Shown in pieces: positions 1-25,856 of a stretch of DNA of 25,856 nucleotides. Origin of the DNA: Lobulomyces angularis (lineage: Eukaryota; Chytridiomycota; Chytridiomycetes; Lobulomycetales; Lobulomycetaceae). The notes under the pieces are model-generated. The model saw only the letters and a list, made by a program, of their open reading frames with translations. It was not told the DNA's origin and ran no database searches. The stretch is from positions 1 to 25,856 of the forward strand of contig JADHYX010000324.1 of NCBI GenBank assembly GCA_027604685.1. Reading direction: 5' to 3'. Position 1 is the first letter of the stretch, and the number at the start of each line of letters is the position of its first letter. Both the position numbers and the translations under genes were made by a program.

Positions 1-132
1 GTTTTAAATATTCTATATTGACAAGATAATGTTTTTGTTGTTGATGACCTGTTATTTGTTACACTAATTATATCTGATTATCATCTTTAAAGTTACAGAT
101 TGCTAGTTCATGTACTTCAATCCTGATCTATT
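1..132. other. Left terminal non-coding region
   Basis: There is no gene here. The first 31 bases read like an inward-facing promoter: TTTTAAA at 2-8, then ACAAGATAAT at 21-30 followed directly by an ATG at 29-31. That ATG opens only a 12-codon frame ending at 67. The same ACAAGATAAT sits immediately before the start of the membrane-protein gene at 23171 and again at 23539-23548. The extreme bases GTTTTAA are matched in inverted orientation by TTAAAAC at the right end. This may be the remainder of a terminal inverted repeat or telomere that the assembly did not complete. Confidence 0.5.
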
Positions 133-1266
133 TTATCTACATGTACAACCAGGCTCACTACATTTTCTACATTTAGCACCAGTAAGAGTGTTATTAGCAG
201 TTATATAGATTTGTGATCCATCTGTTAGAGATGGAATACTAATATATTTATAATTGTCGATAATCATTGAATCCGCCATTCTACATGTCCCACATTTCAT
301 ACATGAACCGACACAATCAGAATTAACTCGTTCTCTATAAAGTTCTATATAATTCATCGCATTTCCTGAACATGCGTGATTTGATGGCGCCTTCCACATA
401 TTTTCCCTAGAATCTATATATATTTTCAGTATTACGGCATTACAACCTTTATATAGTAATCCTATACACATTCTAACAACCTGATTTGTGCCTATATAAT
501 CAGCTAGATGATTCCTTGCCCTACTGAGTAATCTGCCAGGACTAGCTCCACATTCGTGATTCACACTCCACACATATGTATGCATGGCTAGATTATCTAG
601 GACTGCTCTTTTAGTAAGTTCGTGATTATTTATTTTGTTAGTGTCAGCATTAAATACCTCTACAGAATCTAATAGTCCATTCTCGTTAGTTTTGGCAATT
701 ACATGAAAATCATTACTACCATTGATAAATCTTTTATCATATTCTATAGTATATCCAGAATTATCAATTATGTCTGTTGTATTAGATATATATAAATCTA
801 GCAAGGGATCTTCTGTTACTGATTGCATAATTGATTTGTAATCATTACCAAGTGGGAGTGTTGCAAATTGTCCAGTAGTCCTACCACCCCACTTTCCAGA
901 TATAAATGCGGCACCTGCTGCTAGTGATGCACCCGAAGCCATAAGTTGACCAGCTGAAACAGATAGTACCTCTGACGTTGCACCTATAAATGTTACAGCA
1001 CCTGGAAATGGTGCAATTAATGCGAAAAATCCTCCACTTACGAAGGTTAATAGACCAAGGACAGCGGCCGTAGCTGCAAATGCTCCACCCCTTTTATGCA
1101 ATCTAGATTGTAATGAAGTATGATAATTACTTTTCCATAAATCAATGGAAGTAGCATTATCCAATTCTTTATGTATATCAGATAGAGATATAGTCGTTTC
1201 AGATGTTGCTATGGTTACAATAGTCGTTACCAATAAAATTATAGCTACACAATATTTTCTATTCAT
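133..1266 (-). CDS. Secreted preprotoxin-like cysteine-rich protein
   Basis: This is a 377-residue precursor. Residues 1-22 form a signal peptide (basic start, hydrophobic core). KR at 58-59 is followed by a long Gly/Ala-rich hydrophobic stretch, about 60-124. A second LTKR site lies at 217-220. Everything after it (221-377) is hydrophilic and holds 12 cysteines, including C-x3-C-x2-C-x2-C and a terminal C-x2-C-x4-C-x-C. N-glycosylation sequons lie near 37, 162, 182 and in the tail. There is no C-terminal membrane anchor. A signal peptide, Kex2/furin-type sites, a hydrophobic alpha-like segment, a glycosylated spacer and a disulfide-rich beta-like segment match the layout of yeast killer preprotoxins. 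This is inferred from architecture only, as I recognise no sequence family. The alternative is a fusion or attachment glycoprotein, because a dibasic site before a hydrophobic Gly-rich stretch also occurs there. It is the outermost left gene, transcribed outward from an upstream TTAAAAAATTA element. Confidence 0.6.
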   Translation of the reverse strand: MNRKYCVAIILLVTTIVTIATSETTISLSDIHKELDNATSIDLWKSNYHTSLQSRLHKRGGAFAATAAVLGLLTFVSGGFFALIAPFPGAVTFIGATSEVLSVSAGQLMASGASLAAGAAFISGKWGGRTTGQFATLPLGNDYKSIMQSVTEDPLLDLYISNTTDIIDNSGYTIEYDKRFINGSNDFHVIAKTNENGLLDSVEVFNADTNKINNHELTKRAVLDNLAMHTYVWSVNHECGASPGRLLSRARNHLADYIGTNQVVRMCIGLLYKGCNAVILKIYIDSRENMWKAPSNHACSGNAMNYIELYRERVNSDCVGSCMKCGTCRMADSMIIDNYKYISIPSLTDGSQIYITANNTLTGAKCRKCSEPGCTCR

Positions 1267-1290
1267 TATCTAATTCTATGTTCTATAGTA

Positions 1291-1322
1291 TCTTATTAAG
1301 TATTTATTTAATTTTTTAATAT
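1291..1322 (-). promoter_or_regulatory. Likely promoter of the preprotoxin-like gene
   Basis: Read on the minus strand this is ATATTAAAAAATTAAATAAA followed by TACTTAATAAG, 25-56 bases before the ATG. It matches the TTAAAAA-TTA core seen before many other genes here. Confidence 0.45.
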
Positions 1323-1342
1323 ATTCCAAGTATATCAATCAC

Positions 1343-1364
1343 ATATATATATATATATATATAT
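1343..1364. repeat. (AT)11 microsatellite
   Basis: Eleven AT units run up to and touch the stop codon of the 1364-1675 gene. A tract like this can vary in length between copies or assemblies. It lies at the 3' end, so it should not change a protein. Confidence 0.9.
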
Positions 1365-1675
1365 CATACGACTGTGTTACAATTGGTACATAACGAATCT
1401 CTTGATGTTGTAACTTGAGAATATTTATTCTTGAGATATCGTCTCATGTATACATTAAATGTAATTGTAGGAATACAGAATGCTAATAATATATAGATTC
1501 CTATAAATTTATTTGTCTCATACATTATTAATGTCATTGAACATGCGAATGTGCCAACAATAAACACAGTAAGGGAATATTGATAGGCTACCATGGCACT
1601 ATAGAGTTGAGTTTCCGCACTTTCTTTACATTCATAAGAAGATCCAATATTATTAAGTAATGGTTTATTGCTCAT
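1364..1675 (-). CDS. Two-helix membrane protein, terminal family (left copy)
   Basis: This 103-residue protein has a hydrophilic N-terminus starting MSNKPLLN and two closely spaced hydrophobic segments (about 30-52 and 57-76). They are joined by a short loop containing YETNKF, and a basic tail rich in K/R/Y follows. Positive charges flank the hairpin on both sides, suggesting both ends are cytosolic. It is the closest relative of the right-arm protein at 24761-25132, which starts MSSKPLLN and has YDTNKY in the same loop. The two genes point outward at opposite ends. I recognise no known family and the function is unknown. It ends in TGA at 1364-1366, showing that TGA is used as a stop. Confidence 0.8.
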   Translation of the reverse strand: MSNKPLLNNIGSSYECKESAETQLYSAMVAYQYSLTVFIVGTFACSMTLIMYETNKFIGIYILLAFCIPTITFNVYMRRYLKNKYSQVTTSRDSLCTNCNTVV

Positions 1676-1790
1676 AATATATATTTATAATATAATATTA
1701 TTATCTATATCTTATATTAGGGATATGTATATATTTTAAAATTTTAACTATGATGGTTGGATTACGAATTATAATATATAGAGTTGTATT

Positions 1791-2105
1791 CTATACAGGT
1801 TTAGTCATAGATTTTTGCCTTCTTGATCTTTTCCATTTAGAATAAAGTAATGCTGATAATCCAGGAGAATATATAAAAAGTACAACGAATAGTCCTGCAA
1901 ACTTCCAAGCGGGATAGAGTAAAATACTTATTAAAGAGGTTCCTATTGATGTAGCTAATGATATTTTATAATGAAGCAAATAGTTATTTGTTGTACTCAT
2001 GTCATCAGTAATAGCACTCATCTTAATGTTATCATTATCATCCTTTATATCTATTATCATCCTGAGGGATTCTAGTATAGCAGTTAAATTTTTATTTAGT
2101 ATCAT
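1791..2105 (-). CDS. Two-helix membrane protein, terminal family
   Basis: A 104-residue member of the same family. A hydrophilic N-terminal half (about 1-45) is followed by two hydrophobic segments, about 47-66 and 70-89, and a strongly basic C-terminus (KWKRSRRQKS). The loop between helices, YPAWKF, corresponds to YETNKF in the neighbour at 1364. It is separated from that gene by 115 bases and read in the same outward direction. Length, topology and position support a tandem duplication that has since diverged. No function can be assigned. The start is the first ATG in frame, within an A+T-rich upstream stretch, and only 24 bases separate it from the next gene. Confidence 0.7.
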   Translation of the reverse strand: MILNKNLTAILESLRMIIDIKDDNDNIKMSAITDDMSTTNNYLLHYKISLATSIGTSLISILLYPAWKFAGLFVVLFIYSPGLSALLYSKWKRSRRQKSMTKPV

Positions 2106-2129
2106 ATATTATTTTCTAATGTGTTTAAA

Positions 2130-3202: not shown

Positions 3203-3925
3203 TTATGCTGATATATATAAGATATTGTATATACAATCAATAATTAGAGAATAATCTTTCATCCATCTATCTTTGTTTTGCATCATTAAAGGAAATGCAA
3301 CTGGTATTTCTTCAGATATGGAGATTTCACCATCCTTATAAGTTACCATTTGCCATGCAATACCGGTAGTAAGTAAGCCAAAGACTCTTTTTCCATCATT
3401 ATTATTATCATAACAATCCTTTAACGCCAATATGCATTGTTTAAGACATGATATAAGATTTGTATTTTTGGTCTCTACAACAAGTATATATCTGTCTATT
3501 AATTCTATACAATCTACAACAATATATTCTTCTCTACCACCGGTTTGGTTATCTTTTGAGACTATAGTACTTTCTCTCCTAAGCTTTATGCTTGATATAT
3601 TTTCAGTATCTTTATAATATTTCATAACATTTGCTAATACTATGAACGCAAAATCTGCGGTATTAGCTTCTTTAAATGGCTCTATATTACCTATAGGATA
3701 ATCCTCTAGGTCTATACACATGCATAATCCCTTGTAGATTTCATCCTTTATATTCTTTGATTTATCTATAGTATTATTTAGATCTAGTAATTCATTTACT
3801 GGTCTTGCATTATTACATATGTCAGTAAATCTCTTTCCTATGCGTTCTTCGGCCTCTGATTGAGTACATGATGAATAGGATCTCTTCCATTCTAACTTTC
3901 GTCTTTTTGTCCTATCTAATGACAT
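3203..3925 (-). CDS. PD-(D/E)XK nuclease-like protein
   Basis: This 240-residue protein has a basic, nuclear-signal-like start (KRRK at 7-10) and a helical middle. Its C-terminal half reads like a restriction-endonuclease fold: D138 at the end of a strand, then VVETK at 149-153 giving the E-x-K half of the catalytic signature. A helix with Q163 follows, then a strand-turn VFGLLTTG at 181-188 and W191. The order acid, E-x-K, helix with Gln, then a G-(I/L)-x-T-x-G-x-x-W strand is one I associate with nuclease-like domains of fungal and oomycete proteins. The assignment rests on pattern, not on a search. It could cut DNA, or be an inactive binding domain. It is solitary, transcribed outward, with an A-rich TTAAAAAAAATTAA element before the start. 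Signal peptide and membrane segments are absent. Confidence 0.5.
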   Translation of the reverse strand: MSLDRTKRRKLEWKRSYSSCTQSEAEERIGKRFTDICNNARPVNELLDLNNTIDKSKNIKDEIYKGLCMCIDLEDYPIGNIEPFKEANTADFAFIVLANVMKYYKDTENISSIKLRRESTIVSKDNQTGGREEYIVVDCIELIDRYILVVETKNTNLISCLKQCILALKDCYDNNNDGKRVFGLLTTGIAWQMVTYKDGEISISEEIPVAFPLMMQNKDRWMKDYSLIIDCIYNILYISA

Positions 3926-3936
3926 AATGTTGCAGC

Positions 3937-3954
3937 TTAATTTTTTTTAATTAT
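3937..3954 (-). promoter_or_regulatory. Likely promoter of the PD-(D/E)XK-like gene
   Basis: The minus strand reads AATTAAAAAAAATTAAGC, ending 11 bases before the ATG. This is the A-rich TTAAAAA-TTA core shared with other genes. Confidence 0.45.
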
Positions 3955-3996
3955 ATGTAAATGCCATCTTTATCTATTATCTACTTATCATTATAC

Positions 3997-4458
3997 TCAA
4001 ATAATATCTGTAGAATTTTGTCCTAGTATTATCATAGTATCATAAGGCATTCTAAGTTTGGGCATATGGATTTTCTCATCTATTATATATTCTGATGTCT
4101 CAATAGTATTATCTTCTTGTTTATCTATTCTAAACAATTCTATAAGGTTATGAACTATATCTGCTTGTATGTTATTATTATTACTAATATTGGATTTATC
4201 ATGTATATAATATTCATCATTACATAGGCTTTGCGATATTCTCTTTATTATAGATATTTGTCCCCGTCTTTTAGTAGTTAAGGTAGGTTGATGCTTTTGC
4301 GTATTATCTTTCAGTTTATTATCTGTGTCTATATTTGATTTTGTATCTATGATTGGTATGATGCGCCTTTTGTGAGTTGATTCTTTCGCTAATGATATAT
4401 GATTTGTGTCATGATCATATAGAACAGGTATTATGCGTTTTCTATGTTCGCCACTCAT
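3997..4458 (-). CDS. Small hydrophilic protein with repeated basic-IP motifs
   Basis: This 153-residue protein has no recognised family. It is hydrophilic and probably disordered for its first 100 residues. Two near-identical short motifs, HRKRIIPVL (5-13) and HKRRIIPII (29-37), occur near the N-terminus, and a weaker KRRGQISII lies further on. The same type of motif occurs in the UDG fusion protein (6891-8984) and the 478-residue protein (17077-18513). This suggests that the three proteins bind a common partner or share a targeting signal. The C-terminal third contains a possible helix (ADIVHNLIELFRI) and a short hydrophobic end. It is divergent from the capping enzyme gene, sharing an 84-base intergenic region. 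Confidence 0.65.
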   Translation of the reverse strand: MSGEHRKRIIPVLYDHDTNHISLAKESTHKRRIIPIIDTKSNIDTDNKLKDNTQKHQPTLTTKRRGQISIIKRISQSLCNDEYYIHDKSNISNNNNIQADIVHNLIELFRIDKQEDNTIETSEYIIDEKIHMPKLRMPYDTMIILGQNSTDII

Positions 4459-4542: not shown

Positions 4543-6840
4543 ATGAATTTACCTATAGATATAATGATTGTTGGTAATGATGATATTTGTTTATTCTGTG
4601 GACTGAGTAAGCTGGGTCAACTCATCGGTAGACGACAGGGCGCTGATGAAGCCCGTGTATTAGTTAAATGTTCATGTGTATCAGATAATGAGGTGAGTAA
4701 GATGATATATGATAGTGAGGAGCTTGCATATTCGGTGGTATTAACTTCGGATCCATTGATTGAGGAATTAATAACATCTACTAATAATAGCGTCAATGGA
4801 TTACCAAGTAGAACATTTGATATGTCATCCCATACCTTGCATAATGAAATAGAGATAACTTTATCACCTAGTTTATCATCTATATGTTTCAATAAAATAG
4901 ACAATTATGCTGAAATGATAATATTTGAAGCTGGTCATCCAGGAACTAATATAAATGGCAATTTGATGCTTTCATCCAATGTGAGATTTAGGATCGCGAC
5001 TCATATAACTCATAATGCAGAAAGTGATAATGATCCACAACTTAATAGTCTCTTACATAAATCTGTAACATGTAATGTAAAGAATATAGTATCTAAATTC
5101 TGCTGCGCTCCCGATATGACCTATAAATCTTCATATGAGTTTGATGTGATAGATTGGAAGCCATTTCTGGATAACCACTTATGTAAACAATCATACTCTA
5201 TCATGTTTATTGAGCGTATATGTATAATTGGGGATTGGTTATGCAGAACTAGAAGATACTCCCCGGATGATGTATATTCATGCGAATTCGAGTACATTAA
5301 ATCTGGTAGACCATCTGATGAGGATGCATTATACATTCTTGACATTATCCATTCGAGGTTTATATATGAGACTAATTATAGAAAGTACTTGAGACAGGAG
5401 TATATTGATATACTTAGGCATAGCGCTAGACCAACAAAGGATATCAAACATATTCCAGGGTCTAACAATTCATATAGAATTAAAGTTGATGGTGAATATG
5501 CTTGGGTATTTGATGTAGGATCACTATGGTATATATGTCGTAATGATCCAAAATTGACAGTTGTAGGTTATATAATGAAGCAATTCATTAGTACCTTTAG
5601 AGCATTGCATACCGTAATCAGAGTTGAACAAATGGTTGATGGCACACTTGTATTGATAGATGTCTTATGTCTTAATGGAAAGGTAAGAGATATAACTCGT
5701 AGATATGATGATGCGACCAGTGTACTCAAGAATGGCGCAATATTCCCTCCCAATATGGTTATCAGGCATGAATATAATACTATCGAGGAAGTACAAAGAG
5801 CCAGACTAGCATCTGATATTCCTAGTGATGGTATCATAATAATTGAGAAGAATACATCAATCACCTATAGAATTAAGAGTCCTACCATCGATTTATTATG
5901 TACAGGTAAGAGCCTTGTAACTATAAATGAGAATAAAAGAATGAGTAAAGTTATGGATAGTCTTGAGGGTATGCAAAAGAATGTGATTTATGAATGTAAT
6001 ATTAAATTATGTGATAATGATAGATTAAGTATAGTTAAGGCCATGCCTAGATATGATAAAGTAGTGCCTAATAGACCTCAAGTTCTCAAGGACATCATAT
6101 CTGTTCTCAAGTCAGATGATATGATAGATTATACACTTATTGATCGAGTGTCAAATTATTCATTCTTTGTGCGTAAATATATGTATTCATGGGCTAATAA
6201 TAGAATGCGAGATAGTAAACTTATAATTGATGTTGGATCTGGAAGAATACAATCTATATCATGTATTAAAGATAATCCAAATTATTCATATCTATTATGT
6301 GATCCTAAATTAAAGATTCCAAATAGTATTGATTCAAGTAAATGGTTAGATGCTACCAATTATGATGATAAGTCTAAGCTTAATCTACTTGAAAGACTGC
6401 ATAGGGGTAAGGATAAAATAGCATATTACAAAGGGAGTATTGAATCATTTTTCACATCATACAATATATTAAACTTCATAATAGATAATAGATGTATGCT
6501 TATATATTGCTTTAGTTTGTCATATATGATACCATTCTTTAATGATATGGCTAGCAGGGGTGCAAAACAGATAGGTTCATGTTATGTATATGATAATATT
6601 AGGGAAGATTCTACTCTAGTTGATATAAGTGGTATAAGATTGCGAGCTGAAAATGAATCTAGAAAGACTGCTATTGCAACATTCGGTAATAAAGTTGAAT
6701 ACAGAGAGCCTTTAATCACTTCTAATGATATAAGAGCTAGGGAGATAGATCTGGCAATTAATCTTCCATTAACTATCTCTAATATAGAGCATGATGTAAG
6801 AATGGTTGTTTCCAATATTATTGTTGCTAAGAGTTTTTAA
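4543..6840 (+). CDS. mRNA capping enzyme (triphosphatase-guanylyltransferase-N7-methyltransferase)
   Basis: This 765-residue single chain would cap viral mRNA in three steps, like the large subunit of poxvirus capping enzyme (about 840 residues there). Residues about 95-260 look like a tunnel-type metal-dependent RNA triphosphatase, with paired E-x-E strands EIEITL (102-107) and EFEYIKSG (248-255). The guanylyltransferase follows, with the covalent lysine in KVDGE (K314), DG at 429-430 inside SDGIIII, and RIKS with K445. The C-terminal third is an S-adenosylmethionine methyltransferase with IIDVGSGR (glycine motif at 561-568) and SLSYMIPFF near the substrate site. The frame can be extended to a TTG at 4525, but the first ATG is 4543 and I prefer it. 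No separate D12-like stimulatory subunit was recognised. The gene stands alone on the plus strand and ends at a TTTTTAAAA palindrome shared with the convergent UDG gene. Confidence 0.93.
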   Translation: MNLPIDIMIVGNDDICLFCGLSKLGQLIGRRQGADEARVLVKCSCVSDNEVSKMIYDSEELAYSVVLTSDPLIEELITSTNNSVNGLPSRTFDMSSHTLHNEIEITLSPSLSSICFNKIDNYAEMIIFEAGHPGTNINGNLMLSSNVRFRIATHITHNAESDNDPQLNSLLHKSVTCNVKNIVSKFCCAPDMTYKSSYEFDVIDWKPFLDNHLCKQSYSIMFIERICIIGDWLCRTRRYSPDDVYSCEFEYIKSGRPSDEDALYILDIIHSRFIYETNYRKYLRQEYIDILRHSARPTKDIKHIPGSNNSYRIKVDGEYAWVFDVGSLWYICRNDPKLTVVGYIMKQFISTFRALHTVIRVEQMVDGTLVLIDVLCLNGKVRDITRRYDDATSVLKNGAIFPPNMVIRHEYNTIEEVQRARLASDIPSDGIIIIEKNTSITYRIKSPTIDLLCTGKSLVTINENKRMSKVMDSLEGMQKNVIYECNIKLCDNDRLSIVKAMPRYDKVVPNRPQVLKDIISVLKSDDMIDYTLIDRVSNYSFFVRKYMYSWANNRMRDSKLIIDVGSGRIQSISCIKDNPNYSYLLCDPKLKIPNSIDSSKWLDATNYDDKSKLNLLERLHRGKDKIAYYKGSIESFFTSYNILNFIIDNRCMLIYCFSLSYMIPFFNDMASRGAKQIGSCYVYDNIREDSTLVDISGIRLRAENESRKTAIATFGNKVEYREPLITSNDIRAREIDLAINLPLTISNIEHDVRMVVSNIIVAKSF

Positions 6841-6890: not shown

Positions 6891-8984
6891 TTATTGGGAA
6901 TCAATAGTTGGTAATCTTCTGCGACGCATTGGAGTCAGTGGTGCAGAATTATGAGATACTGGAACTTGACTAATCTTTGGTATACTCCTTGATCTCCTCG
7001 ATGTAGTGGATAACTGAGATGACATTGATAGTTGGGATACTTGCGAGTCTATAGATGATATAGATATTTGAGATAAAGTTCTCTCCCTCTTGTTAATATT
7101 TGATGCCATATTACTAGTTGTATCATCACTTGGTATTGTTGGTATTCTCCTTCTACCTTTATGACCAAGAGTAGGTGATTGGAAGGGAGAATGCAAGTTA
7201 GACCATAGAGAATTATTATTATCATATTCTACATGCGCATTAATAGATTTACCTTTATCCTCGTTATCCCCAACCGTGGTATTAGGTACATATGTCTGTG
7301 AGAACATAGATGTAAACATAGAGTATTTAGATGGTAGAAGATCAACTTCATCTTGTTCATATTCATCATCCCCATCTACACTATTTTCCCAATTAAAGGC
7401 ATCTATTGCACTACTATTATCATCATTATAATCGGATGCATTATCTATATTCATTGTGGGCATTCCTGAATTAGCACTATCGGCTTTTGTATTTTTGGTA
7501 TTAGTAGCAGATTTACTAGCATTTTGGCTATCTGCCCTTATATTATGTGATTGCGATGATGATACTGTAGCTTGTTTTGTTGATGATGATTGAGATGGTT
7601 TTCCCAGATCCTCACTTAATGCTGATGCAAAGTCGACATCATATGTTTGGGGTGTGGCTGTCTTTATTATTGGGGGAATTGATGCACCTGTAATATCAAT
7701 ATATGATGTTTGAGATGTTAATGCTGGATTGATTGATGCAAAGAATGCAATGGCAGTAGATAGCGATCCTGCAAAATCATCTATGCAACTTACAAGAGAT
7801 GTAACTGATTCCCTATCATCTGGATTAAGTCTGGTTATAGCATTATGTACATCTCTTGATACTTTGATAGCATAATTCTTTATTTCAGTACCATTATCCA
7901 ACATTATTCTGAGGGTATTATATATCGAGTATTGATAGTCACTCATACCTTTCTTATTTGTGTCTCTCTGTTGATTGCTCATGCTAGCTATGCGATCCTT
8001 TGCTGATATTGCGATTAGCAGTAAGTTATCAATGTTTTGTTCTCTAATCTGCAATATTATATCTTTCCTGAACTGATTAAAGATTTTTGCCAATCTTTCA
8101 TTATTACCTATGAGTATAAGACTGTATTGATGATAGTCATTCCAATTATGTGATATTACCACCTTTTGATCATGATATGAATCTGATACTAATCCTATCT
8201 CATGTAATTCTGTATTCATGAATTTCTCAATATATTCACATGTGTCAGAAGGTGTAATATTATGTCTTATTGCTATGGGTCTTCTCGATCTTGATACAAA
8301 TACGGGATTCTGAAGATATACCTTTGCTATATGTATTGATCTAGTTATTTCTGATGGTATTGAGCTAAGCATGGATTTAATAGTCTTGGATGCAACATCA
8401 CCTAGGCATATTAACTCTATGCTAGTAGAATGTAATAATTTAGATGATAGGATAATATTTGAACATAACTCACTGAAATATGATTCTACCTTCATCTTTT
8501 CCTGATCTCTCAATCTTGAGGACGGATGAACATTAATACAAATGATACCATAATCCAATAATACATAGCTACATGAGAGTAGATCAGCTATATGAGATAT
8601 TCTTGATTTATCTCCCATACATATAAATTGACTTAACACCTGTATTGATGGTGTAAAGCCATTAACTGCCAAAGGATTAAATGCAAATGCAGAACCTATG
8701 GATGGAAGTATATCAGATGCATAAGGCTCTTGACCAATCATTATAACTTTGATAGGTAGGAATGATGGTATCATTGACAGATAAATACATATTCGCTGAT
8801 CAATTATTTGATACATAGCAATGGATGACTTCATTATATATGACTGTATTGCTTCATTCATTATCTGAGTAACAGGATCTATTAATTGATGCTTATCTAC
8901 TGTTATATTATTATCATGTATCTTTCCTTGAGGAAATCTGATGGCACCTGTAAGTCTTGTGTCTAATGTTCTGAGTTCATCCAT
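6891..8984 (-). CDS. Uracil-DNA glycosylase-like fusion, probable DNA polymerase processivity factor
   Basis: This is a 697-residue protein. Residues 1 to about 215 form a family-1 UDG-like domain with the water-activating loop GQEPYA (84-89), FAFNPLAVNG shortly after it, and the leucine-loop histidine in NVHPSS (H153). The usual aspartate of GQDPY is glutamate here (E86), so activity may be weak or lost. Residues about 215-440 are folded but unrecognised. Residues 440-697 are Ser/Thr/Gln/Asn-rich and probably disordered, with an acidic patch and basic motifs RRSRSIPKI (663-671), RRRIPTI (611-617) and RRRRLPTI (687-694). In poxviruses the UDG D4 works with A20 as polymerase clamp. A fused D4-A20-like chain is a reasonable reading, supported by neighbours in the replication block. 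No poxvirus-style A20 similarity was established. Its promoter TTTTAAAAACTTATACTG lies at 9009-9026. Confidence 0.8.
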   Translation of the reverse strand: MDELRTLDTRLTGAIRFPQGKIHDNNITVDKHQLIDPVTQIMNEAIQSYIMKSSIAMYQIIDQRICIYLSMIPSFLPIKVIMIGQEPYASDILPSIGSAFAFNPLAVNGFTPSIQVLSQFICMGDKSRISHIADLLSCSYVLLDYGIICINVHPSSRLRDQEKMKVESYFSELCSNIILSSKLLHSTSIELICLGDVASKTIKSMLSSIPSEITRSIHIAKVYLQNPVFVSRSRRPIAIRHNITPSDTCEYIEKFMNTELHEIGLVSDSYHDQKVVISHNWNDYHQYSLILIGNNERLAKIFNQFRKDIILQIREQNIDNLLLIAISAKDRIASMSNQQRDTNKKGMSDYQYSIYNTLRIMLDNGTEIKNYAIKVSRDVHNAITRLNPDDRESVTSLVSCIDDFAGSLSTAIAFFASINPALTSQTSYIDITGASIPPIIKTATPQTYDVDFASALSEDLGKPSQSSSTKQATVSSSQSHNIRADSQNASKSATNTKNTKADSANSGMPTMNIDNASDYNDDNSSAIDAFNWENSVDGDDEYEQDEVDLLPSKYSMFTSMFSQTYVPNTTVGDNEDKGKSINAHVEYDNNNSLWSNLHSPFQSPTLGHKGRRRIPTIPSDDTTSNMASNINKRERTLSQISISSIDSQVSQLSMSSQLSTTSRRSRSIPKISQVPVSHNSAPLTPMRRRRLPTIDSQ

Positions 8985-14483: not shown

Positions 14484-14505
14484 AACATTACCCATATACC
14501 TAGAT

Positions 14506-18534: not shown

Positions 18535-19185
18535 CTATGCGGATTCATATAGGGAGCTTGTAATGGTTTGACATATGACATCAACATAGCTATCGGCATA
18601 TCGAGATTTGGATATTATTACCGGATATTTTGATGCATTACCATGTATATTATTAGCTTGTCTGATATCATTAATCAGCTGAGGTGCTATTGAACTCATC
18701 GTAGATTCATTAGTGGATGAATTATTAATATTGATATTGCGACTTGATGAATAACCGACTATACTTCTACCATTTATTAGTCTTCTAACCACATCCTTAT
18801 CTAATGATGTTTCTGATATTCTTTCTATGAGTCTCCATAGGCACTGAAAGGTTGATTCTGTGGCATTATGCCATGGAAAACTAGTGGCATTTACAGTATA
18901 TGAATGAGAGTAGAGCATAGTAATAATAATATCAATAGCGTCCAATCCCTCGGGTGGTACTGGAAAAGCAGTCCAACCTCTACTCACCTCTTCAATCAAT
19001 TGTCCTCTCAAATATGCATTATCATCAGATGATAAATATCTGACTGATATAAGTATAGTATTATTTGCAATGGAATCATTGATTATTTTGTGATATGATG
19101 AATCATAATCTTTATGACATGCTGTATCATCAAATAATTCAACTGATGCAAGCTTCCTAAGCTTATTAACAAGAGATAGATTCAT
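18535..19185 (-). CDS. Unassigned 216-residue soluble protein
   Basis: No family is recognised. The first 140 residues appear folded (helices around LVNKLRKLASVELF and AIDIIITMLYSHSY, plus a tryptophan-containing segment LWRLIERI). An Asn/Ser-rich linker near 150-165 and a final helical part follow. There is no signal peptide, membrane segment or cysteine cluster. It is one of three tightly packed minus-strand genes (17077, 18535, 19212) with gaps of 21 and 26 bases, between the two RNA polymerase subunit genes, so a transcription-related role is conceivable. Its own promoter element, TTAAAAAATTATAATCTTACAG, sits inside the 26-base gap, showing that it is individually transcribed. Confidence 0.75.
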   Translation of the reverse strand: MNLSLVNKLRKLASVELFDDTACHKDYDSSYHKIINDSIANNTILISVRYLSSDDNAYLRGQLIEEVSRGWTAFPVPPEGLDAIDIIITMLYSHSYTVNATSFPWHNATESTFQCLWRLIERISETSLDKDVVRRLINGRSIVGYSSSRNININNSSTNESTMSSIAPQLINDIRQANNIHGNASKYPVIISKSRYADSYVDVICQTITSSLYESA

Positions 19186-19187
19186 TG

Positions 19188-19209
19188 CTGTAAGATTATA
19201 ATTTTTTAA
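19188..19209 (-). promoter_or_regulatory. Promoter element copy A (TTAAAAAATTATAATCTTACAG)
   Basis: This 22-base minus-strand element ends two bases before the ATG at 19185. Copy B at 20172-20193 (plus strand) differs at only a few positions, and both end in TCTTACAG directly before the start. The two genes are otherwise unrelated and on opposite strands, so this is a shared regulatory sequence. Confidence 0.6.
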
Positions 19210-19211
19210 TA

Positions 19212-20156
19212 TTATTGCCTTAAAGCCAGATATATATCAGTTTCTGATTTAGGTGCATCATAGCAAAATAACTTTAATAGATTACAATCTCTGCAACGAC
19301 CATTCAATAATCTCATAGTTCTTACGCGTATATCATACCAATTGAAATGACCCTGGGATAATATAGTATTTATGCGATGATTAGAAATGCATTTAGATAT
19401 AATTAGGCAGATTATTTCAGTATATCTACCTGAGCATATACCTAGCATTATATCAAAGTTATTATTGAAACTTTCATAAAGTGTATTTAATTTAGCCATA
19501 TTTCTAAGCAGGGGAATTGCAATGATAAAACTATCTAGCTTGTACAATTTAGATATAGCATCATACTCGCATGTCTTGTATACATCCTCATTAACTAATT
19601 GATCATAGCTTCGTCCAACAATCACTAGATTAATCGAATTAGATACCACTTTATTATCTATCAACTTGAAGTAATCATTTAAATTATCAACTGATTCATG
19701 TATAATACTCAATTCCTCATCATGTAATGGGATAAGTTTCTTCTCCCTATGGCTAATCATAATCACATTCAACCTTCCAGTATATGTACTGCATTGCCAA
19801 AGATATCTGATTGATACAATTATATCATTTACATGAATGAAATTCCACATATCTATCAGATAAATATTGAAATCAGATGAGTCATGTGTTATTGAGCCAA
19901 AAGCTCTTAGTATAGAGCGCCAATATATATAATAAAGGCATATGTCCCTATTATTATCCAGTATATATCTTTCATTAGTGTTGCTGCATGAAGCAACTAT
20001 TTCACTGGCATATGTACATCTTGTCAAAGTATATTCTAATGAACTTGTATTAATACAATATCTTGATCCACCATGGGTACAGTGACCTATGACATATGAA
20101 TATAATCTACTTCTAATTCTTCTATTATTTATACTATCACCTTTATCCATAAGCAT
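19212..20156 (-). CDS. Unassigned 314-residue protein, possible NYN/PIN-like domain
   Basis: This protein has no certain family. The middle begins with a strand ending in an acidic D-x-x-N (IYLIDMWNF) and continues with alternating strands and helices (LNVIMISHR, NLVIVGRSYDQL, DSFIIAI). It also contains acidic CEYDAI. This is reminiscent of NYN/PIN-type nucleases, but the spacing of the acidic residues is not convincing. A Rossmann-like cofactor of the capping enzyme (the poxvirus D12 role, about 290 residues) is another possibility. The N-terminus is basic and cysteine-containing, and the C-terminal CRDCNLLKLFC could bind zinc. A second in-frame ATG two codons in (20150) may be the real start. 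It is divergent from the gene at 20197, with 40 bases between. Confidence 0.7.
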   Translation of the reverse strand: MLMDKGDSINNRRIRSRLYSYVIGHCTHGGSRYCINTSSLEYTLTRCTYASEIVASCSNTNERYILDNNRDICLYYIYWRSILRAFGSITHDSSDFNIYLIDMWNFIHVNDIIVSIRYLWQCSTYTGRLNVIMISHREKKLIPLHDEELSIIHESVDNLNDYFKLIDNKVVSNSINLVIVGRSYDQLVNEDVYKTCEYDAISKLYKLDSFIIAIPLLRNMAKLNTLYESFNNNFDIMLGICSGRYTEIICLIISKCISNHRINTILSQGHFNWYDIRVRTMRLLNGRCRDCNLLKLFCYDAPKSETDIYLALRQ

Positions 20157-20196: not shown

Positions 20197-21243
20197 ATGG
20201 ATTCATGGTCTCTACCTGTTGAGATATTAATAAGCGATAAACTATCATTAAATGAGAATCTCAAGTCTATACCAAAGCATAAAGATATTCTTCCGGGAGA
20301 TGGATTAAATGCTAAATGGGGTCGTGGAAAGCAAGAAGAATCAAGGATTAACTGTAAGATGTGCTTATCTATATTTTCTAACCAATTGGGGAATAATAAT
20401 GTAAGTAGGAATCCATCATTAGAAGGATTATATACTAATTTCAGAATTACAAGTTGGGGAACTATATATCCATTTAATACCTGGGAGGATAAGATCTATA
20501 GAGATGTAGCCAGAGGAATGGTTATTGAACAATTGAAATATCATAGCGCTAATCGACCAATAATAATAGTTGGAACATGGAAGTTATGTAAATCAGCAAC
20601 TGTAACAGTATTCTTTCTCATGCCAGCTATAGCAACATCGAGTTGGAGTATACCCTCTATAACAGATGATATAATTGAGCATGTTAGAAGCTATCTAAAT
20701 GTTGAATCCCCATCATCAAATATGAAAGATAATATATGTATAACAAAATCATATGGTCCTACCAAGATAGCAGGGCGATTAGCATGCTCCGCAGCTACTA
20801 TATTAGAATCAAACCCAATATTTCATACCTATGCCACTGAATTACATACACCTGTCTCAATTCACCTTGGATGTAGCAAACTTATGTATTTCATCCATCA
20901 TAATAGTAATACATATACATGTACCACATCTCTTGCTACACTCGAGAAATTAAATTTATATGGAGGTCAAACAATTAATATGCTATTTGATGAATATATG
21001 TCTCTATCAATATATTCTAATTCAGCGAGGCATAATATAATAAACAATATAAGATCTATACCTAGCAAATCATCTAATAGTTGTATAAGATTAATAGTAG
21101 ATGGTGGCCTTAGATTTCTCGGTAAGCCACATGCTATCGCTCAATCATTCCGAGATCTGCATAATCTTATATACATATCAATGTCAAATAATGAAAGAGC
21201 ATCATCTATAATTGCATCATTACGAGTACTATCTAGTACATAA
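20197..21243 (+). CDS. Unassigned 348-residue protein, possible transcription component
   Basis: No family is recognised. The N-terminal region has a C-x2-C pair (NCKMCLSIF, near residue 53) within a Gly-rich basic context. The middle has alternating hydrophobic strands and Trp-containing loops (RITSWGTIYPF, IIIVGTWKLCKSATVTVFFLM). The latter loosely recalls TBP-like or RNA polymerase accessory domains, but not enough to assign. There is no signal peptide. It is the only plus-strand gene between RPB2 and the right arm, and it converges on RPB1 with a 2-base gap. The company of the RNA polymerase genes suggests an early/late transcription factor or small polymerase subunit. This is context inference only. 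Confidence 0.7.
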   Translation: MDSWSLPVEILISDKLSLNENLKSIPKHKDILPGDGLNAKWGRGKQEESRINCKMCLSIFSNQLGNNNVSRNPSLEGLYTNFRITSWGTIYPFNTWEDKIYRDVARGMVIEQLKYHSANRPIIIVGTWKLCKSATVTVFFLMPAIATSSWSIPSITDDIIEHVRSYLNVESPSSNMKDNICITKSYGPTKIAGRLACSAATILESNPIFHTYATELHTPVSIHLGCSKLMYFIHHNSNTYTCTTSLATLEKLNLYGGQTINMLFDEYMSLSIYSNSARHNIINNIRSIPSKSSNSCIRLIVDGGLRFLGKPHAIAQSFRDLHNLIYISMSNNERASSIIASLRVLSST

Positions 21244-21252
21244 TTTTAAAAA
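21244..21252. terminator. TTTTAAAAA element between convergent genes
   Basis: The stop codons of the plus gene (21241-21243) and the minus RPB1 gene (21246-21248) are embedded in or touch TTTTAAAAA. This is the third convergent junction in the window with such a palindrome. Confidence 0.35.
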
Positions 21253-23069
21253 TTAGCCTCAGATTTCATGGTCTGATAGATATAATTACCTGTTATTATA
21301 GACATGACTGCAGACATAACATTGCATGAATCCATTGTTGTATCATACAATCTTTTACCTTTTCTTAAATCTAATTCATATATATCATCACATACTGCAG
21401 TTAATAATGATGGTGATTTGGTCTTGGCCAGAAACTTTATCTGCGATGAATCTGTCATTTTATCAGAATGATTATTGAAGGTAGAAGCCCATATACAGTG
21501 AGCAAACTCAACAACTTGTCTCCTTGTAGCTTTAATATTATTCAATTTACAGCCAAGATCAATCGCTATAATACATCTTCTGAATCTCTCTTTAACATCA
21601 TTCTCACGTGATAGCTGTGACCTAGATAATGAATATAATAGTTTTTCATCTACCCTATAATATGATTCCTCAGGTACTAATTTTCTACTCTTATCTGGAT
21701 ATTCTACTATACTGAATCCATTCTGATGAGTTAATATTGATAGAATTAAATCTCGCTTGGGTGCAGAGATAGCATGCTTGGCCTTATCAAGTAATGCCTG
21801 TTGAATCTTTCCCGAGATCTCAGATGATAGTTTTGTACCTGGATAACCGGCTTCTTCATCCTTAATGTTATTACATATCATTGTATCTATATTGTTGGAT
21901 TGATCATTAAGCCATAAGGTATTTAATATATTCTTATTGCTTGTAGTCTGTAATAATAGATGCTTTAATTGTCGCCCAACTGTGAATCCCTCTGATACTC
22001 TTATATGACTCTCAGTAAGTTCATGAATCGCTGTATTTGAATTTCTGACAAATGACTTCATTCTCTTGGCTCTATTATTACATCCAAATTCCACTATATT
22101 CCATAGCTCAGCCTTAGCACGACATAGTTTGTGTAATTTCTTGGATGGTGATTTATAACCAACATCAGTAAGACTCATAGTACTTGGAAGCATAAAATCT
22201 ATAACTAGCTTCATATCAATCTGCCTATTATGCCAAAAGTCTTCCAGGCATTCCTTAAATGTATTAGATGAAAATTTATCTAGTATATTTCTCTCCATAC
22301 TTAATTGTGCCTCACGCCTTGCTGATGATCCATCAATAATACAAATATGTACCTCATCACCATCATAATCAAGGTTTAATAGTGAACAAAACTCTGGATG
22401 TATACCTATAGACTTATGCTTCCAAGGAAGTAATTTAACACATTGAGTAGAATTATGTGACATTACAGGTGATCTTGACAGAATAGCATAATCACCCTTA
22501 CATGCATTTCTAATGGAGTAATATGGAGAGATTAGATCCTGGCTTTCCTTTCTTGTTATCACTTTGATTCTTGACATCCATCTCTCAGGAATCATTACAG
22601 TACGATAATCTTCACTCCAATGGCATGATGCAACACCTCTCATTGAAGTTGCAGGTGTAAATCCCATACATTTATACTTCAGTATACCTCTCTTACCAGC
22701 TATACAATTACGGAGAGAAATAGCATATTGGCGAGGATGTATAGAATGATTCATCAATCCTTTATTCAGCCTATCAGTTTCTGACATTTCTGTTGGATCA
22801 TCGGCTCTAGCACAAAATGGAGGTAAACCAATATTCTTACCATCACTGCTTTGTAAATGTCCCAGGCACTCATCATGATATGGACAAAATATAGAACTTG
22901 ATGAATTCATATTTTTTGCTTGCCATGGTATATATTTGAGATTATTTACATTGAGTTTGGCAAGATGAATAGATACAACTTTAGGTGCAGCATCAACTCT
23001 AGATCCAGGCTTAACAGCTTTATGCATTATGAAGGGCGGTGCATCAGATTCCTTATCTATAAGATACAT
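21246..23069 (-). CDS. RNA polymerase largest subunit (RPB1/beta-prime-like), extremely reduced
   Basis: This 607-residue catalytic subunit is about half the size of the poxvirus counterpart (about 1290). The order of landmarks is preserved. First is an N-terminal zinc fold C62-x2-H65-x2-C68-x-G-H71, then GKRGILKYKCMG with SMRGVAS (RNA exit and active-site entrance). SRSPVMSHNS follows, then the magnesium-binding NLDYDGDE with D234, D236 and D238. After that come a bridge-helix-like AKAELWNIVEFGC and a trigger-loop-like SHIRVSEGFTVGRQL. A short C-terminal closing helix region ends in ITGNY. Only about 30 residues separate the bridge and trigger elements, so the funnel, jaw and most of the clamp have been lost. 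The catalytic motif is N-L-D-Y-D-G-D, where most enzymes have N-A-D-F-D-G-D. It converges with the 348-residue gene. Confidence 0.92.
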   Translation of the reverse strand: MYLIDKESDAPPFIMHKAVKPGSRVDAAPKVVSIHLAKLNVNNLKYIPWQAKNMNSSSSIFCPYHDECLGHLQSSDGKNIGLPPFCARADDPTEMSETDRLNKGLMNHSIHPRQYAISLRNCIAGKRGILKYKCMGFTPATSMRGVASCHWSEDYRTVMIPERWMSRIKVITRKESQDLISPYYSIRNACKGDYAILSRSPVMSHNSTQCVKLLPWKHKSIGIHPEFCSLLNLDYDGDEVHICIIDGSSARREAQLSMERNILDKFSSNTFKECLEDFWHNRQIDMKLVIDFMLPSTMSLTDVGYKSPSKKLHKLCRAKAELWNIVEFGCNNRAKRMKSFVRNSNTAIHELTESHIRVSEGFTVGRQLKHLLLQTTSNKNILNTLWLNDQSNNIDTMICNNIKDEEAGYPGTKLSSEISGKIQQALLDKAKHAISAPKRDLILSILTHQNGFSIVEYPDKSRKLVPEESYYRVDEKLLYSLSRSQLSRENDVKERFRRCIIAIDLGCKLNNIKATRRQVVEFAHCIWASTFNNHSDKMTDSSQIKFLAKTKSPSLLTAVCDDIYELDLRKGKRLYDTTMDSCNVMSAVMSIITGNYIYQTMKSEANF

Positions 23070-23142
23070 TATGTCGAAATATAATAATTTAATTTACATG
23101 GTATTATAAGTACTTAGCATATTCGAAATAACTATAGATAAG

Positions 23143-23170: not shown

Positions 23171-23467
23171 ATGATAGTAGAAGAGGTTAGAAGAGATATT
23201 GATAATGATAATATAGAACATTTAAATAGAGTTCCATTTCTAACACCTGCCGGATCCACTTCACTCATCGCAACTATCATATGGTTTTCTGGTATAATAT
23301 GCTCGGGTGTCATATTCATTATACTTACTATTATAGAGAATGAATCAAGATATTATATAGCGGGTTTCATATTAGTATTACAAATATTAGGATTTCTAAT
23401 AATGTGCTGTGGACATATAGTATCTATCATAAAAATCTTAATGATACGGAATGGTAAAATTAAATAA
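23171..23467 (+). CDS. Two-helix membrane protein, terminal family
   Basis: This 98-residue protein has an acidic/Asn-rich N-terminus (about 1-30) and hydrophobic segments at about 33-56 and 64-88. The family signature ESRYYIAGFILVLQI begins the second helix, and the tail is basic. The RYYI(A/S)...(L/I)Q pattern is shared with the three neighbours downstream at 23843, 24253 and 25170. It is the first gene of the right arm and transcribed outward. Function unknown. Possible roles for small paired-helix proteins at the ends of viral genomes include host interaction, membrane remodelling or self-protection, none of which the sequence decides. Confidence 0.75.
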   Translation: MIVEEVRRDIDNDNIEHLNRVPFLTPAGSTSLIATIIWFSGIICSGVIFIILTIIENESRYYIAGFILVLQILGFLIMCCGHIVSIIKILMIRNGKIK

Positions 23468-23842
23468 TAATTATATAACTATTACTACTAACTTCCAGAA
23501 TAGAATTTTAAAAATAGGTAATATACTACATATTTAGTACAAGATAATTATCCAAGCAATCAACCAAACAATATTGTGGATAATGTGCAAGATCTATACT
23601 TATATCGTGATCCTCATTCATATCAATATTCATTTTTAAACCTGGTATTGTGCTATATTATATCTAAATCCAATATCCATGTATAAATATACTGATACTC
23701 AAGATCGTGTGATCATACAATAATATGCATACATATAAATATTAATAATTACATTTAATCTACTATCAATTACAAACAGATACTTAGTACTATAGTCGTC
23801 CCCATTAATATATTAAAATATATACATAGATAGGTAGAAGCT
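23468..23842. other. Right-arm gap with a possible lost gene start
   Basis: These 375 bases contain no intact gene. TTTTAAAAATA (23506-23516) and ACAAGATAAT (23539-23548) repeat the promoter layout of the gene at 23171. The start codon is missing at the equivalent place (TATCC follows). An open frame of about 45 codons without ATG continues to a TAA near 23692, with no clear family signature. Beyond this are only very short frames and A+T-rich sequence, ending in TATTAAAATATATACATAG before the 23843 gene. Confidence 0.4.
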
Positions 23843-24136
23843 ATGATTATAGCACAAAATAAACGCATTGAGAATCCATTATTCAGCCAAGAAACACCGT
23901 TATGGTTTAAAAGAAACATGATAAAATATATAACTATCATATCATTTACAGGCTTATTCTTCCCGACATTTATATTCATTATATCATGCCAGACAGATTC
24001 TATCCATAAATATTATATATCAGGTGCTATTATAGGAATGCAAACACTCATGGCATTGCCATGGTTTTATATATGTATAATATTTGATAGAAAAACACGG
24101 GATAGGTCTCACCAGCAGACACAAGAATCATGCTAA
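23843..24136 (+). CDS. Two-helix membrane protein, terminal family
   Basis: This 97-residue protein has ETPLWFKRN before the first helix (about 27-48), KYYISGAIIGMQ at the start of the second (about 55-78), and a hydrophilic tail ending HQQTQESC. The next gene has EIPLWYRR, RYYISCTIIIIQ and DQQIRESC at the same places. The two are therefore clear tandem duplicates, including the C-terminal Cys. The terminal cysteine could be lipid-modified or disulfide-linked, but ESC is not a standard prenylation signal. Function unknown. Confidence 0.75.
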   Translation: MIIAQNKRIENPLFSQETPLWFKRNMIKYITIISFTGLFFPTFIFIISCQTDSIHKYYISGAIIGMQTLMALPWFYICIIFDRKTRDRSHQQTQESC

Positions 24137-24208
24137 TAATGATATTATACTATTCTGAAAATCCTACATTACTAAGATATATAGATAAGATATATGATAT
24201 TATACATA

Positions 24209-24220
24209 ATTAAAAATTTA
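24209..24220 (+). promoter_or_regulatory. Likely promoter of the 24253 gene
   Basis: ATTAAAAATTTA lies 33 bases before the ATG and is identical to the core of copy B at 20171-20182. Confidence 0.45.
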
Positions 24221-24252
24221 CTCCATATACTATAATTATATGAATAATATTC

Positions 24253-24549
24253 ATGAAAAAAAAAAAAGATGTACACATTACTAATAACAAGGATAAGGTT
24301 ATGGAAATACCATTATGGTATAGAAGAATGGTAGTATTACAAATGGCATCCATAATATTTATATCGGCGGTTTGTTCAACAATTGTACTTATAATATCAA
24401 ATACAGAAAACTCTAATGCCAGATATTATATATCATGTACAATTATAATAATTCAGGTGATTGATACGATAGTAATAGGTATTATATATGTATTAACTGG
24501 CAGAAGGATGATAACTAAAACCGATCAACAAATACGAGAATCGTGTTAA
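24253..24549 (+). CDS. Two-helix membrane protein with 12-A start tract
   Basis: A 98-residue family member, closest to the 23843 protein (shared PLW(F/Y)(K/R)R, (K/R)YYIS and QQ-x2-ESC). The helices are at about 29-49 and 57-80. Directly after the ATG come twelve A residues in a row, encoding four lysines. A length change of this tract by polymerase slippage would shift the frame and switch the protein off, so it could act as a phase-variable start, or simply be an error-prone site. If the tract varies, an in-frame ATG is available at codon 17 (near 24301), just before EIPLWYRR. Confidence 0.7.
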   Translation: MKKKKDVHITNNKDKVMEIPLWYRRMVVLQMASIIFISAVCSTIVLIISNTENSNARYYISCTIIIIQVIDTIVIGIIYVLTGRRMITKTDQQIRESC

Positions 24550-24580
24550 CATTAATAATACAAGTAAAATCGTTACAATC

Positions 24581-24657
24581 AATATTTTAAAAACTTCTGC
24601 ATATGTAGAATATATAAAGAAATAGGTATAATTAAGAAATATTAAAAACTTCTATAT
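24581..24657 (+). repeat. Two direct copies of AATATT(TT)AAAAACTTCT-x2-ATAT
   Basis: Copies at 24581-24604 and 24638-24657 share AAAAACTTCT and flanking AT-rich bases. AAAAACTT is also seen in the UDG promoter and at 25494-25501. These are probably promoter elements duplicated with the membrane genes. The 211-base gap between the 24253 and 24761 genes contains nothing else I can identify, apart from the 23-base repeat. Confidence 0.5.
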
Positions 24658-24686
24658 AAATATATAAATATCTTATCATATTATAA

Positions 24687-24709
24687 ATAAAATATTAAAA
24701 CATTCACAT
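24687..24709 (+). repeat. 23-base direct repeat, copy 1
   Basis: ATAAAATATTAAAACATTCA followed by CAT is identical over all 23 bases to copy 2 at 25132-25154. It lies 51 bases before the ATG of the 24761 gene. Confidence 0.85.
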
Positions 24710-24760
24710 TATTTTCATATATATATTATAATTAGATATACTGCAATTTAGCCATAAATC

Positions 24761-25132
24761 ATGAGTAGTAAACCCTTACTTAATAGTAATAATGACGATA
24801 ATAATGATATGACGCATAAAATTAATAATCAATTAATAAATAATATGCGCAAAGATTTTCTAATTACTAATAAAAATATTCATCGTGATTCTATAACTGG
24901 TATAGAAGCTAGACGATATGGCTTGGCTATATCTTCACAAACATCAGCGATATCACTTGTTACCGGAATTACATGCTGCCTTGTAACCATTCAATATTAT
25001 GATACAAATAAATATATAGCGATTTATATTTCGACTGCCATATGGATGCCAATCATTATAGCACATTACTGGGGAAAATATCTCTTTAATAGAAAATATC
25101 CTATTAATAATGATTATCAAATATTACCTTGA
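24761..25132 (+). CDS. Two-helix membrane protein, counterpart of left-arm gene
   Basis: This 123-residue protein starts MSSKPLLN and has a long Asn/Asp-rich hydrophilic N-terminus (to about 50). Its helices lie at about 55-77 and 86-104, the loop is YDTNKY, and a basic KYLFNRKYP segment follows. It matches the left-arm protein at 1364-1675 (MSNKPLLN, YETNKF, RYLKNKYS) better than its own neighbours. The two copies are about 23 kb apart in inverted orientation, as expected if one arm once duplicated the other. The additional 20 residues are in the N-terminal region. The stop codon overlaps copy 2 of the 23-base repeat. Confidence 0.75.
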   Translation: MSSKPLLNSNNDDNNDMTHKINNQLINNMRKDFLITNKNIHRDSITGIEARRYGLAISSQTSAISLVTGITCCLVTIQYYDTNKYIAIYISTAIWMPIIIAHYWGKYLFNRKYPINNDYQILP

Positions 25133-25154
25133 TAAAATATTAAAACATTCACAT
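25132..25154 (+). repeat. 23-base direct repeat, copy 2
   Basis: An exact copy of 24687-24709. It lies between two membrane genes, overlapping the stop of one and ending 15 bases before the ATG of the next, so it probably includes the downstream promoter (ATTAAAAC core). Confidence 0.85.
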
Positions 25155-25169
25155 AAATAAATATAGATT

Positions 25170-25457
25170 ATGAATACGGAACAAGTTACTCATGATCATA
25201 ATAATGATAAGATTGATAATAAGAACATTCCATTACAATATAGATTATTCATGTTAAGAGGTATGATACTTATATTATTTGGATATACACTATGTTCAAT
25301 ATTTATATTCACACTAGCCATCAGGATGAAATCCCCATCTCATTATTACATAATATATATTATCATTACAGGGCAGGTATTAGGAATATTATTATTATTC
25401 ATTTCATATGTATTACTTGTAAGAAAGGGTACGAGCAAAATCTCTCAGCAAATATAA
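25170..25457 (+). CDS. Two-helix membrane protein, terminal family
   Basis: This 95-residue protein has NIPLQYR before helix one (about 29-50), a polar loop, and HYYIIYIIITGQ starting helix two (about 55-78). The tail is basic (VRKGTSKISQQI). The arrangement matches the 24253 and 23843 proteins, but the ESC end is missing because the frame stops after QQI. An overlapping frame at 25292-25474 is only a shadow. Function unknown. Confidence 0.7.
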   Translation: MNTEQVTHDHNNDKIDNKNIPLQYRLFMLRGMILILFGYTLCSIFIFTLAIRMKSPSHYYIIYIIITGQVLGILLLFISYVLLVRKGTSKISQQI

Positions 25458-25620
25458 AGTCATCCTATAGATAATATACAGTATAATATATTTTAAAAAC
25501 TTAATACAATACTTAGAATAATGAGATATGTAAAGATTCATATGATATTCACCGTGAAAGTAATAATTGATACTTAGTGACAGTTATAATAATGGTAATA
25601 ATAATTATATAATTAGTACA

Positions 25621-25641
25621 TTAAAACTTTAAAATATAACA
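25621..25641 (+). promoter_or_regulatory. Likely promoter of the right-tip ORF
   Basis: TTAAAACTTTAAAATATAAC, 23 bases before the ATG at 25664, nearly repeats the element before the dUTPase-like gene (10672-10690). Confidence 0.4.
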
Positions 25642-25663
25642 TAAGCAACCGAGATTATCACTC

Positions 25664-25843
25664 ATGTCACCCGCCAAAAGGTTACATCGTAGAATAGGGA
25701 GGCCACAAAGGGATATAGATCAACCTCTACCTCAAGGACACTTTATCATCTATAGTACTGAATACTTTCAGCATATAGTAGATACAAATAACTGTAGATC
25801 CTATGGGCGACATTTTAATCCTGATGGTAGTGAGATTCTATAA
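25664..25843 (+). CDS. Small basic protein at the right tip (59 residues)
   Basis: This 59-codon ORF is complete, from ATG at 25664 to TAA at 25841-25843, only 13 bases from the end of the window. The N-terminus is very basic (MSPAKRLHRRIGRPQRD). The C-terminal part contains aromatic residues, one cysteine and three histidines. It is hydrophilic and unlike the membrane-protein family. Its codons are not obviously noisy, and it has an upstream element shared with a core gene. It may be an intact small gene, or the stump of a longer one cut at the terminus. I cannot assign a function, and the shortness keeps confidence moderate. Confidence 0.5.
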   Translation: MSPAKRLHRRIGRPQRDIDQPLPQGHFIIYSTEYFQHIVDTNNCRSYGRHFNPDGSEIL

Positions 25844-25856
25844 TCTTGATTAAAAC

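Follow-up and report, generated by a model that had tools for sequence, protein, structure and literature searches.

A candidate complete linear replicon of 26 kb with poxvirus-like replication and transcription genes in Lobulomyces angularis

Background

According to PMC10328495, Saccharomycetales are the only group from which cytoplasmic linear plasmids are known. PMC10640383 states that fungi have no known double-stranded DNA virus, and reports fungal genomes as lacking a homologue of the major capsid protein. Here we consider contig C324 of the Lobulomyces angularis assembly (20.76 Mb, 533 contigs); the entire contig, 25,856 bp, is the stretch of DNA that was analysed and is called the window below. 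A preliminary description, made from the letters of this contig, presented it as a poxvirus-like replication and transcription set without recognisable virion genes. That description holds in large part: its observations are partly confirmed and its interpretation is partly supported.

We consider it probable, with some reservation, that the window is a complete linear replicon of about 26 kb that belongs to a family of elements of roughly 20-30 kb and is carried outside the nucleus in L. angularis as a virus-like element. This is argued from the gene set, the clade formed by its DNA polymerase, the matching termini, a nuclear fragment with the same end base, the signals between the genes and the open reading frames (ORFs), as well as from contigs of similar size that carry relatives in Clydaea (26,321 bp) and Geranomyces (25,877 bp).

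Results

We worked with 24 ORFs, all of them open, which together occupy 90% of the contig; its GC content is 0.316, and that of the other contigs read here is 0.18 to 0.35 per kb. The left-arm ORFs lie on the minus strand and the right-arm ORFs on the plus strand, so the arms do face outward, as had been described. Identities at the level of profiles were obtained for the family B DNA polymerase (PolB), RPB2, RPB1 and the SF3 helicase, and at the level of motifs only for the capping enzyme and the UDG-like domain. The Pfam scan of the 24 ORFs gave matches above the cut-off for PolB, RPB2 and RPB1 alone; PHROGs and NCBIfam profiles were run on ten ORFs each. Neither a tRNA nor an Rfam match was found in the window.

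PolB (12144-14483, plus strand) matches Pfam DNA_pol_B at 1.4e-45, and the best 60 of its 112 matches in PDB are, by name, delta, alpha, archaeal and similar DNA polymerases. The protein-primed type was not recognised in it, DNA_pol_B being the only Pfam family matched. The earlier statement that the polymerase is not protein-primed is supported by these sequence comparisons, and the enzyme would be of the DNA-primed type. The presence of both large RNA polymerase subunits was likewise confirmed by Pfam profiles: RPB2 (866 aa; 14461-17061, plus) matches Rpb2_6 at 6.3e-14, and RPB1 (21246-23069, minus) matches Rpb1_2 at 8.1e-8. The latter is compact (607 aa); its residues 183-265 align with positions from about 390 onward of other largest subunits, so that a large portion of the N-terminal region present in those proteins is absent or not recognisable.

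The SF3 (D5-type) helicase (10744-12174, minus) matches the helicase part of a PHROG primase family at 2e-7 and carries Walker A, an ATN motif and SRR. Its profile matches start at residue 199 and no primase domain was recognised in the protein; the D5-like helicase named in the preliminary description stands.

The probable three-domain mRNA capping enzyme (4543-6840, plus) shows its motifs in order: ExE at 102, KxDG at 314, DG at 429, KxK at 443 and the methyltransferase GxG near 561. The UDG-like protein (697 aa; 6891-8984, minus) has in its N-terminal domain GQEPY, an FxF, TPSI and a later N, also in order, followed by a long low-complexity tail. Neither order was reproduced in 20,000 shuffles of the respective protein; since both patterns were drawn up after the proteins had been inspected, these counts show only that the order is non-random. 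Searches of Pfam and PDB gave no support for any domain of the capping enzyme and nothing for the UDG-like protein, so both earlier assignments hold as far as the ordered motifs and no further. Active UDG enzymes have GQDPY, and the poxvirus UDG acts partly as a scaffold. Because GQEPY stands in place of GQDPY, the protein of the window may by analogy be a scaffold as well.

Relatives of the element were sought with the PolB protein, which found 130 proteins at E <= 0.001. Among the best 120 of these, 16 (P0001 to P0016) stand out from the 104 others. One, from Clydaea vesicula, is 96% identical and lies on a contig of 26,321 bp; another, from Rhizoclosmatium hyalinum, lies on one of 23,080 bp. 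Three are labelled Rhizopus arrhizus (14,381 bp), the oomycete Peronospora belbahrii (30,110 bp) and Ascosphaera aggregata (2,170 bp), and the remaining ones are on contigs of 6.7 to 27.2 kb. Eight of the 16 contigs exceed 20 kb, the longest having 30,110 bp. In the tree the window and its 16 relatives (17 rows) form a single clade with support 100/100; this statement is limited to the outgroups used, 13 of the other 104 listed matches, with no named poxvirus or asfarvirus among them, and the result carries a warning about long branches and differing letter composition. Of the relatives, P0014 to P0016 are the most distant. As to the labels, the Rhizopus, Peronospora and Ascosphaera polymerases (P0005, P0007 and P0013) may come from the true host or from a contaminant.

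Parts of the gene set recur together in these relatives. The Clydaea contig of 26,321 bp has a gene model that fuses the orthologues of the 321-aa protein and of the 697-aa UDG-like protein (the latter 87% identical) in the same order as in the window, and the contig with the Clydaea PolB has the same length. In Rhizoclosmatium, PolB and a relative of the window helicase (29% identity, E 4e-48) share one gene model. The relative of the 321-aa protein in Geranomyces variabilis lies on a contig of 25,877 bp. Of the related contigs with a similar gene order, which the preliminary description proposed to look for, those found cover these parts of the gene set. Lobulomyces and Clydaea belong to Lobulomycetaceae, Geranomyces to Spizellomycetales and Rhizoclosmatium to Chytridiales. 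Scans of IMG/VR for whole relatives gave PolBs of at most 32% identity among the matches listed, or nothing, and bacterial and archaeal genomes gave PolBs of at most 30%, again among the matches listed. The plasmid scan gave haloarchaeal PolBs, and the phage scan gave nothing for the 321-aa protein.

The window begins with GTTTTAA (1-7) and ends with TTAAAAC (25850-25856), an exact inverted match of 7 nt with a chance of 2.1e-4 for two random places. Contig C263 of the same assembly (28,752 bp) contains a fragment 89% identical to window 25588-25856, up to the last base of the window, where the alignment necessarily stops, the window having no further sequence. The end of this fragment, read inward, is GTTTTAAATA, identical to the left end of the window over 10 nt. 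Immediately past the junction, a YVDDM motif of reverse-transcriptase type is present in one reading frame; its position suggests that other DNA begins there. Further pieces of C263 are 70% identical to 23967-24147 and 83% identical to 25132-25172. The fragment is adjoined by an ORF of 203 aa (5805-6416 of stretch L172) with a DTG stretch like that of a retropepsin, and the ORF may belong to the element or to a retroelement.

The 59-aa terminal gene (25664-25843, plus) differs from its broken nuclear copy mostly at third codon positions (3, 5 and 12 differences by codon position), with 11 of the changed codons synonymous and 9 other. Contig C375 has a fragment of 77% identity around the 103-aa gene, and C126 has a piece of 52 nt from the helicase gene. 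We read the fragments in the three contigs as probable nuclear insertions of related elements, and these broken pieces tie the element to this host lineage. The sites, all short and broken, are L172 6564-7222 (C263), L175 1881-2091 (C375) and L177 3930-3981 (C126).

Two signals recur between the genes; both were found by inspection, and their counts are descriptive. The promoter-like TTAAAA is present in the 80 nt upstream of 17 of the 24 ORFs, with 3.4 expected from dinucleotide shuffles (at most 12 in 200) and 6.7 from single-letter shuffles (at most 15 in 500); on the opposite strand of the same stretches it occurs before 4 of 24. Counted on both strands, 37 of its 47 copies are intergenic. 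The palindrome TTTTAAAA has eight copies, each positioned in the interval from 2 nt ahead of a stop codon to 53 nt behind it; converging genes flank three of them, and two are also 38 and 63 nt before a start. It is present in 9 of the 24 downstream stretches (0.17 expected). The copies are at 1734, 6835, 9018, 17064, 21244, 23506, 24585 and 25491. The poxvirus early terminator TTTTTNT follows none of the 24 ORFs, which is uninformative with only 0.5 expected.

The larger ORFs (377, 240, 153, 321, 153, 478, 216, 314 and 348 aa) match no Pfam family above the cut-off. The 321-aa protein (9052-10017, minus) appears to be specific to the family: it has three relatives of 69, 45 and 41% identity and no Pfam or PDB profile match above the cut-off; that it is a single-strand-binding factor is our guess. 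The left-most gene (133-1266, minus) encodes the 377-aa protein, which combines a signal-like N-terminus with a KR site, 13 Cys and a long hydrophobic stretch; PDB, too, gave no match for it. The product may be secreted or membrane-bound, and toxin-like, immunity-related or envelope-like.

The left arm further encodes small membrane proteins of 103, 104 and 164 aa (1364-2624, minus), two of which have paralogues in the right arm, where five small proteins of 98, 97, 98, 123 and 95 aa (23171-25457, plus) are related to each other and to the left arm. Within the set of 24 proteins the 103-aa and 123-aa proteins match at E 4e-10, and the 164-aa and 95-aa proteins at 8e-8 in one direction and 2e-6 in the other. 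Poxviruses and asfarviruses have inverted terminal gene families.

The motif R-R-x-I/L-P-x-I/L and its near forms have six copies in three proteins, with 0.15 expected and at most 2 in 2,000 shuffles, the pattern having been chosen after it was seen. Three copies are in the tail of the UDG-like protein, two (R-x-I-P-x-I/L) in the 153-aa protein encoded together with the 240-aa protein at 3203-4458 (minus), and one (R-x-I-P-x-I) in the 478-aa protein (17077-18513, minus). The three proteins that share it (3997-4458, 6891-8984 and 17077-18513) are otherwise unrelated. Of the three copies in the tail, the Clydaea UDG-like protein keeps two unchanged and shows a single change in the other, while residues 430-697 are 78% identical. 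We infer that the motif is a docking peptide. The remaining ORFs encode a second 153-aa protein (10186-10647, minus), the 216-aa and 314-aa proteins (18535-20156, minus) and the 348-aa protein (20197-21243, plus).

Discussion

Several observations weigh against a complete replicon without virion. No primase was found among the proteins of the window, which leaves priming without explanation. The TTAAAA of the termini coincides with the promoter-like motif; at both ends it faces outward, in the orientation that would suit a further gene beyond. The motif also occurs within 60 nt after 17 of the 24 ORFs (3.5 expected), so that some of the excess reflects a place between genes and not specifically in front of them, and seven ORFs have no upstream copy: those of 104, 153 (left arm) and 314 aa, the capping enzyme, PolB, RPB2 and RPB1. 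Finally, several ORFs have no known fold, and a diverged capsid may therefore be among them.

An alternative, which we regard as unlikely, is a small encapsidated DNA virus, in which the 321-, 348-, 314-, 478- or 153-aa protein would be a diverged capsid and the 377-aa protein and the small membrane proteins would form an envelope. A large share of the central region is indeed taken up by proteins without assignment; relatives have kept the 321-aa protein, and both arms encode hydrophobic proteins. However, no capsid, protease or packaging family, the packaging ATPase included, was found above the Pfam cut-off in the 24 ORFs. The only P-loop of the form GxxxxGK[ST] in these ORFs is that of the SF3 helicase, and with neither a family match nor a second full P-loop an A32-type packaging ATPase was not found in the window. 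The earlier observation that virion genes cannot be recognised is thus upheld at this level, and the virion-less reading is probable from the sequence.

It is considerably less credible that the contig is only part of a larger poxvirus- or asfarvirus-like genome, with capsid genes elsewhere. Its gene set is indeed part of the core of such viruses, and contig ends alone do not prove the ends of a molecule. Against this, the relatives' contigs are similar in size, with a ceiling of 30.1 kb; the termini share 7 nt, and the nuclear fragment stops at the same base; and the RNA polymerase subunits are compact. The assembly was searched with PolB, RPB2, RPB1, the capping enzyme and the 321-aa protein, and gave the window itself and matches of 29-33% for the polymerase subunits, which are most simply taken as the host genes for PolB, RPB2 and RPB1; second copies of the viral core were not found. 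The capsid family of nucleocytoplasmic large DNA viruses (NCLDV) had no match across the assembly, but the controls were silent too, so that little is shown by it. The Pox_A32 family gave one match of 32 positions (C100:47202-47297), slightly over the cut-off with neighbours. A fragment of a larger capsid-bearing genome, which the preliminary description gave as its own refutation, was not found by these tests and is not supported. As to a chromosomal viral insertion assembled as a separate contig, short related fragments do sit in C263, C375 and C126, but they are short and, where coding, broken, whereas the 24 ORFs of the window are open and have no flanking host sequence, and we find this reading scarcely tenable.

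Returning to the complete linear replicon, which the window looks like by its sequence, we propose that its own RNA polymerase and capping enzyme would produce capped messages without the nucleus. PolB would copy the DNA together with the helicase, the 321-aa and UDG-like proteins may serve as accessory factors, and the tail motifs could dock partner proteins. Copying would most likely begin from folded or nicked ends, given that no primase and no polymerase of the terminal-protein type was recognised. The element would be passed on with the cytoplasm, via zoospores and without a virion, and the arm proteins might serve persistence or interaction with the host.

A broader proposal, for which we see the arguments as evenly balanced, is that the element represents a deep undescribed lineage of virion-less cytoplasmic replicons across fungi, and perhaps oomycetes, which derives from poxvirus-like stock independently of the yeast linear plasmids. 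If so, it would be a second route from the core of a DNA virus to a plasmid-like passenger, one that retained DNA-primed replication together with an SF3 helicase and a UDG-like factor within 26 kb. A chytrid family with poxvirus-type replication genes would make the loss of the particle by a DNA virus testable, and would allow the smallest self-sufficient cytoplasmic set for replication and transcription, as well as the single or repeated origin of such cores, to be tested. The preliminary description knew of no group with this gene set, and we found no description of one in the literature searched (bioRxiv and most subscription journals were outside the search). Gong, Zhang and Han (2020, cited in PMC10640383) reportedly dealt with fungal DNA-virus polymerase genes, and an overlap with the present group is possible.

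Comparison with known systems

The closest described plan is that of the yeast cytoplasmic linear virus-like elements of the pGKL1/pGKL2 type, as described in PMC6211774. Like them, the window is a small linear DNA in a fungus with its own RNA polymerase subunits, AT-rich and compact, with a shortened largest subunit and no virion genes recognised. The three-domain capping enzyme would be a further likeness, represented here by ordered motifs without profile support. The yeast elements have a protein-primed PolB with a fused terminal protein, whereas the PolB of the window appears not to be protein-primed; they have an RPB2-RPB1 fusion, whereas here the two are separate ORFs on opposite strands. 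Their SF2 helicase has no counterpart found in the window by motif and family scans, and their upstream conserved sequence (UCS) ATNTGA shows no enrichment, being present in 5 of 24 upstream stretches against an expectation of 3.6. A yeast-type linear plasmid was rejected as an assignment on these four differences. Unlike the yeast elements, the window has an SF3 helicase and a UDG-like protein. They are cytoplasmic and have terminal inverted repeats with a bound protein (PMC6211774); in the window the inverted termini measure 7 nt.

With poxviruses and other Nucleocytoviricota the window shares a PolB that is DNA-primed by sequence, its own multisubunit RNA polymerase (RPB1, RPB2), a D5-type helicase and, by motif only, a capping enzyme and a UDG-like protein. 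The inverted gene families near the ends of poxviruses and asfarviruses are paralleled by its paralogous arms. Nucleocytoviricota have 70 kb or more (PMC10640383), whereas the window has 26 kb, no recognised capsid or packaging family and no primase domain recognised in its helicase protein. The asfarvirus-related region of Rhizophagus irregularis, described in the same paper, is also nucleocytovirus-type DNA associated with a fungus; that region is chromosomal and 1.5 Mb long, whereas the window forms a separate contig of 26 kb. What links the window to poxviruses and to yeast linear plasmids is resemblance. In plan the element agrees with the yeast elements and in its enzymes with poxvirus-like viruses, and it is filed here under neither; by analogy, it would work most like a cytoplasmic virus-like element.

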